Below are positions 2,136 through 4,586 of a stretch of 64,000 nt of DNA, one piece after another. The translations under genes and the position numbers were made by a program. This DNA is from Halorussus rarus. GTDB taxonomy: Archaea > Halobacteriota > Halobacteria > Halobacteriales > Haladaptataceae. The stretch covers positions 62,001-126,000 of the forward strand of contig NZ_QPMJ01000005.1 in the NCBI RefSeq assembly GCF_003369835.1. Direction: 5' to 3'. The number at the start of each line of letters is the position of its first letter. Position 1 is the stretch's first letter. The notes beneath the pieces are model-generated. The model did no database searches. It was not told the origin of the DNA and was given only the letters and a program-made list of their open reading frames with translations.

Positions 2136-2645
2136 GGGATTCGCTGGCTACCGACGATCCCGAGGAAGAGCTTATCTTCGTCGAGTGTACCAGCGCACGT
2201 TCGCTCAATAGCGAAGAGCCGCTCGGGCTGTCGGGGACTGTCTCGGAGTTGATTTTGTCCCGAATGGGGCGGATCCTGATGTACTCTTGGGAGGTCTTGA
2301 TCTCCTTGATGAACTCCTCTACGTCCCTCTCATCCTCCTCTTCGTTTTGCTCAACGATCTCGAAGACGGTACACGGCTCATCGAGGTAATAGAACACCTT
2401 GAGGGCTTTGCCGGTCAACCGCTCATGGAAGTCGATGTGGGGAGGCTGACGGACTTAGAAGCATCCCGCCCCACAAAGATTTTTTAACGTAGACGGCGTT
2501 TCTCCCGTCATGTGCCACCTCTGTTCCCGTCTTGGTAGCGCAGTGCGGACGGGGAGTGGCATCTTCGTGTTCTCGTAGCTGGTGGCTGGGGCCGAGATTG
2601 GCCTCAGGGCACTGTCCGTCGACTACCATCAACCACCAGCAGCTA
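2136..2645. other. Gene-poor region with an unrecognised minus-strand open frame
   Basis: No convincing gene. On the minus strand a frame stays open from about 2451 down past 2140 and reads as a plausible helical acidic segment (ALKVFYYLDEPCTVFEIVEQ, then a run rich in E, D and R), but it begins right after a stop with only a TTG start and runs into the 3' end of the MFS gene. I do not recognise it; it may be the C-terminal remnant of a lost gene. A T-run followed by AACG at about 2480 could terminate or promote transcription. The 160 bases before the release-factor ATG hold no motif I can name. Confidence 0.35.
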
Positions 2646-3718
2646 ATGTCAGAAGCATACGACCTCCGGGACAAGATCGACCAGCTTGAACCGCTCGAAG
2701 GGGAAGGAACCGAACTCGTCACGATCACGATGCCGTCCTCGAAGTCGATCAGTTCCATCCGTGAGCGTATCGCACAAGAACACGCAGGTGCCGAGAACAT
2801 CAAGTCCGACCAGATACGAAACCGTGTACAGCAAGCACTCAAACGCATCCAGCGCATCCTCCAACGATACCAGGAGACCCCAGAAAACGGTCTCGTCGTG
2901 TACGCGGGTGTGGTAGACGGAGAACTCACGTCCCACGTCTTCGACGATCTCCCGCGACCCGTCACGGAATCTACGTACCGGTGCGACGACCACTTTGATT
3001 TGACGCCGTTAATCGACGTTGTCGCACCGAGCGACACGTTCGGACTCGTAGTAATTGAACGAGGGCGAGCCGCCATCGGACGACTCGTCGGTGAGCGCAT
3101 TATCCCCATCCGTTCATTCGAGAGCCAAGTCATGGGGAAGTCCGAGCAGGCGGTCAATCCGCCCAGCGGTTCGAACGTGAACGGGAGCGGCAAGCCCACG
3201 AGTTCTTCCAGAAAGTCGGGGACATCGCCAACGAAGCACTCATCGGAGACGACGCAGTGACTGGCTTGGTTATCGGCGGAACACTCGCAACCGCTAAGAA
3301 GTTCGTCTCCGGTGACTACCTCGACCATCGATTGAAAGACCGACTTCTCGGAACGTATCCCGTGGAGTATGGGAATACGCAGGGACTCCACCAACTCGTA
3401 GACAAAGCAGAGAGCCGTCTCCTCGATGCCGAACAGCAAGAGGCTCGCGAGCACCTCGACAAGTTCTATTCCCGCCTCCGTGGCGGGGGTACAGTCGCAT
3501 ACGGGAGCACAGAGGTTGAGCAGGCGATCGAATACGGAGCCGTGGAAACAGCATTAGTAGCGTCTTCCGTTCCGCGAGATGAACGAGAGGAACTCGAAAC
3601 CGAAGTCTCCCAACAAGGTGGTGAGTTGTGCGTGACTTCGACCGACACTGAGCGTGGGGCGCAGTTGGCCGACAACTTCGGCGGCATCGGCGCTCTACTC
3701 CGTTTCCCGATTAAGTGA
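2646..3718 (+). pseudogene. Divergent aRF1 (peptide chain release factor 1) paralogue, frameshifted before the GGQ motif
   Basis: Two overlapping frames together encode one release factor of about 357 residues. Frame one (2646-3260) carries domain 1: a GTELVT loop near residue 21, NIKS at 51-54 (stop-codon recognition) and a YRCDDHF segment matching YxCxxxF. Near 3146 one base is missing; reading then continues in the frame that ends at 3718 and gives GGQSAQRF (GGQ codons 3149-3157), the peptidyl-tRNA hydrolysis loop, followed by domains 2 and 3. It lacks the Cys-rich minidomain of the housekeeping haloarchaeal aRF1 (usually about 415 residues), so it is a paralogue. Either a mutation, a sequence error or a recoded -1 shift explains the break; no classic slippery heptamer is seen. 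Confidence 0.8.
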
Positions 3719-4586
3719 GAACGACGATGCGTACACCGCGGACGAGCAAGTCCTCACCTGGGGCGTGTTCGGCGGCGTCCCGTACTACCTCGAAGAGCTC
3801 TCGCCCGACGCGACCCTCCCGGAGAACGTCCGGCAGACGATTCTCTCGCGCCACGGGACCCTCCACGACGAACCGGACTACGTGCTTCGGATGGAGCTTA
3901 CGGAACCGACGCGGTACTTCTCGATCCTGGAGGCCATCGCCGGGGGAAGCACCAGTCGGAACGAGATCGCAGGGACGACGGGTATCGACTACAATCAACT
4001 CTCGAAGTACCTCAATCGACTCTCCCGACTCCGCCTCGTCGATCAGCACGTGCCGATCACCGAACGGAAAGAACGGAGCAAGCGGAGCCGATACCGCATT
4101 CGGGACCCGTTCTTCCGCTTCCGGTTCCACTTCGTCTACGGGACCGGCGAGCAGTACGACGAACTCGGAGCGGACGCGTACGACGCGCTCGTCGAGCCGG
4201 AACTGGCCGATTTCGGGAGCCGGTCGTTCGAGGAGGTATGCTGTTCGGCGCTCCGGTCACTCTACCCGGAGTACACGATCACGAAGACCGGGCAGTGGTG
4301 GTACGGTGAACACGAGGTCGACGTCGTGGGCCTCACTGCGGGCGAAACCCTCATCGCCGGCGAGTGTAAATTCCGGCAGTCGCCGCTCGGCTACGACGCA
4401 CTCTCGAAACTCGAACGACACGTCGAGGAACTCCGGTGGACGCCAAGCGACGGTAGGGGTCGGGTCGAGAAGTACGCGCTGTTCTCGCGGAGCGGATTCA
4501 AACAGTCCGTCGAGGAGGCGGCCGCAGAGCGAGACGATCTTCGGCTCTTCACGGTCGAAGACATCGTGACCGCGTTGAGTACGTAG
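3719..4586 (+). pseudogene. 5'-truncated archaeal ATPase of the DUF234 family
   Basis: The frame after the release-factor stop gives about 288 residues matching the C-terminal half of the archaeal AAA ATPase/DUF234 family: VFGGVPYYLEEL (sensor-2/lid region), a winged-helix stretch (STSRNEIAGTTGIDYNQLSKYLNRL), RYRIRDPFFRFRFHFVYG, then the DUF234 nuclease-like part with GEHEVDVVGL and GECKF. The Walker A and B half is absent; coding similarity begins immediately after the aRF1 stop at 3718. No start codon or promoter belongs to it. It is a remnant left by recombination. Residues D and E-x-K of the DUF234 core remain, as in PD-(D/E)xK-type folds. Confidence 0.82.

Follow-up and report, generated by a model that had tools for sequence, protein, structure and literature searches.

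The locus at positions 2646 to 3718 of the analysed stretch of Halorussus rarus DNA (64,000 nucleotides in length, hereafter the window) encodes, to judge by its sequence, a class-I release factor: an accessory aRF1 of the type without minidomain, spread over two frames of the same strand. We consider it likely that this gene was acquired horizontally and has lately lost its function through a real deletion of one base. The reported 'frameshifted second release factor' thus amounts to damage that is recent and confined to this copy of a mobile accessory gene, or to an error, the most likely explanation for the window copy being the ordinary recent loss of such a gene.

An aRF1 paralogue in two reading frames

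The features of the locus, all on the forward strand, are the following:
2543..2645 (+): leader conserved with the Haladaptatus orthologues (blastn homology, leader alignment, RNA fold)
2646..3143 (+): aRF1 paralogue, domain 1 (stop-codon recognition) and start of domain 2, frame 0, 166 codons (PF03463, E 2e-8; TIGR03676 positions 1-167)
2796..2807 (+): codons of the NIKS motif (sequence)
2976..2996 (+): YRCDDHF, the YxCxxxF motif (sequence)
3143..3144 (+): site of a one-base deletion relative to eight orthologous copies (DNA alignment; the HSPs of the two frames share base 3143)
3143..3718 (+): part in the -1 frame, remainder of domain 2 with GGQ and domain 3 without minidomain, stop TGA 3716-3718 (PF03464, E 2e-20; PF03465, E 7e-19)
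3144..3260 (+): out-of-frame tail of frame 0, stop TGA 3258-3260 (open reading frame)
3149..3157 (+): GGQ codons, in the -1 frame only (sequence)
3722..4586 (+): DUF234-type ATPase gene, 5'-truncated, its first ~175 codons missing (PF03008; match to Natrinema versiforme pNVE414)

Translated from the ATG at 2646, frame 0 gives 166 residues, ending in ...FESQVMGKS, before the frame change, and the -1 frame adds 191 residues between 3143 and 3718 (RAGGQSAQRF...LLRFPIK, followed by the stop). The two pieces add up to 357 residues, in agreement with the initial annotation, according to which a -1 change would restore a protein of this length. The window copy does not display one continuous frame through GGQ, the frame changing at 3143/3144, and its frame-0 product as deposited is a truncated protein of 204 residues devoid of GGQ. 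From 3095 onwards the -1 frame is open, which gives an open overlap of the two frames extending to 3257.

Domain eRF1_1 was recognized in the first piece and domains eRF1_2 and eRF1_3 in the second, all three above the Pfam curated cut-offs. The class-I aRF1 motifs NIKS, YxCxxxF and GGQ were all present, GGQ in the second frame only; domains and motifs therefore bear out the earlier identification of an aRF1 paralogue with NIKS and YxCxxxF in its first frame. Scored separately against TIGR03676, whose equivalog cut-off is 234.7 bits, the two pieces reached 148 and 153 bits, and a whole orthologue (G020) 303.6 bits. Such strong homology in both frames of a single strand is, on this sequence evidence, not attributable to chance. 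The minidomain was rightly described as missing: approximately 39 residues are absent in comparison with the canonical aRF1 of the host. Some other aRF1s are also without it (PMC2613156). The start, stop and promoter-side sequence of the window copy were intact and no second lesion was seen.

From their motifs, whole members of this family would most likely bind A-site stop codons and hydrolyse peptidyl-tRNA, in a putative role of spare terminator or rescue factor. The known biochemistry of eRF1 and aRF1 suggests that the 204-residue product, a stop-codon-recognition domain without GGQ, should fail to release peptides. Termination in the host would be served by the canonical aRF1 encoded elsewhere in the genome (G000:C3), and since an intact minidomain-less paralogue is also present (G000:C2), loss of the window copy should be tolerated.

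Origin and age of the break

The gene differs in composition from its surroundings (GC 0.575 versus 0.673 for the window), lies on a contig of 145 kb, and was without an orthologue in the 17 further genomes of its genus. Its blastn homology to Haladaptatus extends from approximately position 2543 to the aRF1 stop, and within 3 bases of this stop it is joined to the truncated ATPase gene, which shares 83% identity with the ATPase gene of Natrinema versiforme pNVE414 from base 528 of the latter. The missing 5' part of the ATPase gene was found neither in the window nor in the 10 kb upstream. Lower GC content, absence of orthologues in the genus and a truncated neighbour indicate that the gene arrived horizontally and that its surroundings are rearranged and in part decayed; the accessory gene was probably acquired by a Halorussus-like haloarchaeon and is probably plasmid-borne. 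Near the start of the window, a small gene with a nucleotidyltransferase domain (NTP_transf_2) occupies positions 178-570 of the reverse strand and, together with a frame running off the window, possibly forms an MNT/HEPN-like pair.

The nearest orthologues belong to a second genus of the same family, Haladaptatus, with amino acid identities of 75-77% in the N-terminal half and 65-71% in the C-terminal half. DNA alignment with eight orthologous copies showed the window to be one base short at the junction 3143/3144, two codons ahead of GGQ. The initial annotation had correctly placed the break just before GGQ, but its position (around 3146) lies 2-3 bases downstream of the actual one, and its description as 'one base before' the motif was inaccurate. 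In the same alignment no orthologue was broken at base 3143/3144; a -1 shift conserved among relatives, which the annotation had proposed to look for, was thus not found, the outcome it had associated with a mutation.

Both sides of the break are well preserved, as previously stated, with dN/dS values of 0.06-0.10 between the window copy and its orthologues (pairwise values, only where dS was unsaturated). Among the sites invariant in other lineages, the window copy deviates at 12 of 139 and the intact G196 copy at 14 of 140, a similarity which suggests that the break is young. Low dN/dS and few deviations imply that the whole frame was under constraint until recently, the break being either young or an artefact. 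Published criteria for assigning a frame transition to a pseudogene or an error are a non-conserved site, occurrence in few genera and homology on both sides (PMC3711429). All three were observed here, and the break is accordingly to be regarded as one or the other.

The main rival to a real deletion is a sequencing or assembly error, in which case the gene would be whole in the organism and encode a working accessory release factor of 357 residues. This has a modest, though by no means negligible, probability in our estimation: one isolated indel in a gene otherwise fully constrained and free of other lesions looks like an error, and in a survey of frameshifted genes in prokaryotes, errors were the expected cause of most singletons confirmed by homology (PMC3711429). 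However, the site has at most two or three C in a row and no long homopolymer, the assembly, in 7 contigs, has a completeness of 99.98%, and the other likely coding frames of the window are mostly long and open. Moreover, one-base deletions of the same gene occur in independent assemblies, one of them identically at two places of one genome.

These deletions were found in Haladaptatus. The gene is whole in four species of this genus (G020, G021, G022 and G026), while one base is missing near the C-terminus in H. litoreus (G025), after GGQ in the identical chromosomal copies of H. pallidirubidus (G027a/b), and further on in the plasmid copy of the latter (G027c). Three further independent one-base deletions point to a recurrent loss of the gene; with the window included, four such deletions are known from eight distinct copies, each time at another position. 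This recurrence supports a real deletion in the window copy, which would have lost one base between 3143 and 3144 in recent times.

On the chromosome of H. pallidirubidus (G027 C1; L042, L043) the region is present twice, identical over 10,850 bases. The plasmid copy (C2, L044) is nearly identical to the chromosomal copies in its N-terminal half (dS 0.025) but not in its C-terminal half (dS 0.26), a contrast which suggests gene conversion.

Recoding and split-protein readings

Of the readings put forward earlier, a recent lesion and a sequence error are both still live, whereas deliberate recoding received no support, the break being unique to this copy and accompanied by neither a heptamer nor an unusual fold. 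Programmed -1 frameshifting, in which a slip at the break would yield the second release factor in a controlled quantity as in bacterial prfB (+1) or Sulfolobus fucA1 (-1), is in our view very improbable. The frames do overlap over 3095-3257, and slipping by -1 gives back exactly the family sequence; at the P site, the codon GGG (3135-3137) could pair anew after moving back by one base, and a GGCGG/CCGCC hairpin starts six bases past the break. Nevertheless, no X XXY YYZ heptamer was present among the codons around the site (ATG GGG AAG TCC GAG CAG), the half-slippery GGGGAAG also occurs in intact orthologues, the hairpin is a product of the GGQS codons themselves, and the downstream fold (z = -0.57 and -0.37) was no stronger than that of shuffled sequences. 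With the orthologues whole or broken elsewhere, the site is not conserved. The lack of heptamer, unusual downstream structure and conservation together make programmed frameshifting unlikely.

The archaeal case of fucA1 calls for some caution. This Sulfolobus gene undergoes a programmed -1 frameshift at A AAA AAT with a stem-loop, although it is whole in most related species (PMC8211752), and a -1 programmed site may hence go unconserved between species. Non-conservation alone is therefore insufficient against recoding, and a small residual probability is retained. It is scarcely to be expected, however, that in this lineage a non-canonical -1 event at GGG AAG TCC supplies the second release factor in small and regulated quantity, as happens with fucA1 for a sugar hydrolase in Sulfolobus.

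The two frames could alternatively encode two functional proteins, a domain-1 decoy binding stop codons and a separately initiated GGQ protein. Both halves are conserved, and a GTG at 3257 is the only start found in the -1 frame after GGQ, but the vicinity of the GGQ codons holds no conserved start, none of the orthologues is divided at 3143/3144, and the pattern of constraint is that of intact copies; we attach hardly any weight to this arrangement. The preferred reading continues to be a recent real deletion in an acquired accessory gene.

The wider family and comparison with known systems

The family as a whole is more interesting than the window copy. A GGQ-bearing, minidomain-less aRF1 moves on haloarchaeal plasmids and is repeatedly lost in Haladaptatus. 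Haloarchaea commonly have accessory release factors: of 391 Halobacteria-class genomes, 63 yielded a copy belonging broadly to this type (E<=1e-30), contrary to the earlier view that release-factor duplicates are unusual in archaea, and most copies in these 63 genomes had frames long enough for the whole gene. Such was the case for 46 of 47 copies in the Natrialbaceae (125 genomes searched), which indicates no programmed pattern. Closely related paralogues were located on large plasmids in at least four haloarchaeal families (L060-L069; NZ_CP039142.1, that is pHME132, and other plasmids), and the plasmid-borne aRF1 paralogue is a mobile release-factor gene. The suggested link with host-virus conflict received no backing: the paralogue had no viral match in 50,697 phage records and none in IMG/VR, the latter screened with exact peptide patterns that reach close relatives only.

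A class-wide search for a break at the same place yielded three other short frames, all rejected as the same lesion: G314 has a 28-base tandem duplication near the same place, the copy of G370 has diverged (DGQ) and its break lies approximately 15 codons upstream, and that of G069 is an N-terminally truncated remnant (EGQ). The G314 copy (C2; L096 around 2771-2800) is plasmid-borne and broken just ahead of GGQ, with a second, intact copy in the same genome.

The leader of the window gene contains an inverted repeat with arms GCTGGTGG (2578-2585) and CCACCAGC (2633-2640), ending 5 bases upstream of the ATG, and its RNA fold has a z-score of -3.07. Leaders were compared between the window (2570-2645) and L014-L017, L020, L024, L026, L034 and L045, and several subgroups of the minidomain-less family displayed an inverted repeat just 5' of the start codon, with letters differing per subgroup. 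For the leader of the Halorussus-type paralogue, a stem of 9 bp was paired in 96% of cells and had two compensatory positions, though 55 of 500 shuffles did equally well; as the arms were paired by eye and then counted, this count leans towards structure. The repeat may represent a leader RNA or an operator.

A pair of genes encoding an HTH protein and a VapC-type PIN protein, annotated as a type II toxin family, was observed upstream of the Haladaptatus paralogue (L037:7211-7995, L038:6590-7374, L041:7100-7884 and L044:3360-4144). This pair is complete in G020, G021, G026 and the plasmid copy of G027, and truncated, broken or reduced to a remnant in G025, G027a/b and G022, which suggests that the pair and the release factor tend to decay together. 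A search of the host genome for a PIN partner elsewhere returned a weak partial match only. According to a published proposal, paralogues of release factors are recruited to free ribosomes jammed by toxins that target translation (PMC6514570). Plasmid travel, repeated loss and a VapC-type PIN neighbourhood in one genus would fit this proposal, and rescue of toxin-jammed ribosomes by the aRF1 paralogue may be envisaged, the PIN link being confined to that genus.

Among known systems, the bacterial RF2 gene prfB is likewise a release-factor gene with a frame change, but its protein is non-homologous and its +1 frameshift takes place at an in-frame stop codon and is conserved and signal-driven (PMC12421855), with no counterpart at the window locus. 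The canonical haloarchaeal aRF1 (TIGR03676), exemplified by the host copy, shares the three eRF1 domains and the NIKS, YxCxxxF and GGQ motifs; it differs by the presence of the minidomain insertion, a length of 396-413 residues and an identity of only 34-37%. The pHME132-type plasmid aRF1 of Haloferax mediterranei, Halobellus, Natrinema and others is closer, being minidomain-less, plasmid-borne and endowed with the same motifs as the window family, with 55-56% identity to the Haladaptatus protein, but its frame is intact, its neighbours are other ones and its leader inverted repeat has other letters. The closest counterpart is the Haladaptatus prf1, annotated 'peptide chain release factor aRF-1' on plasmids and chromosomes (e.g. 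NZ_CP111042.1, NZ_CP085329.1). It is preceded by the HTH and PIN pair or its remnants, which are absent from the window locus, and is either whole, as in four species, or broken at other bases, as in H. litoreus and H. pallidirubidus; it is nonetheless the same gene end to end, sharing with the window copy the leader of approximately 100 bases, the motifs and the missing minidomain.
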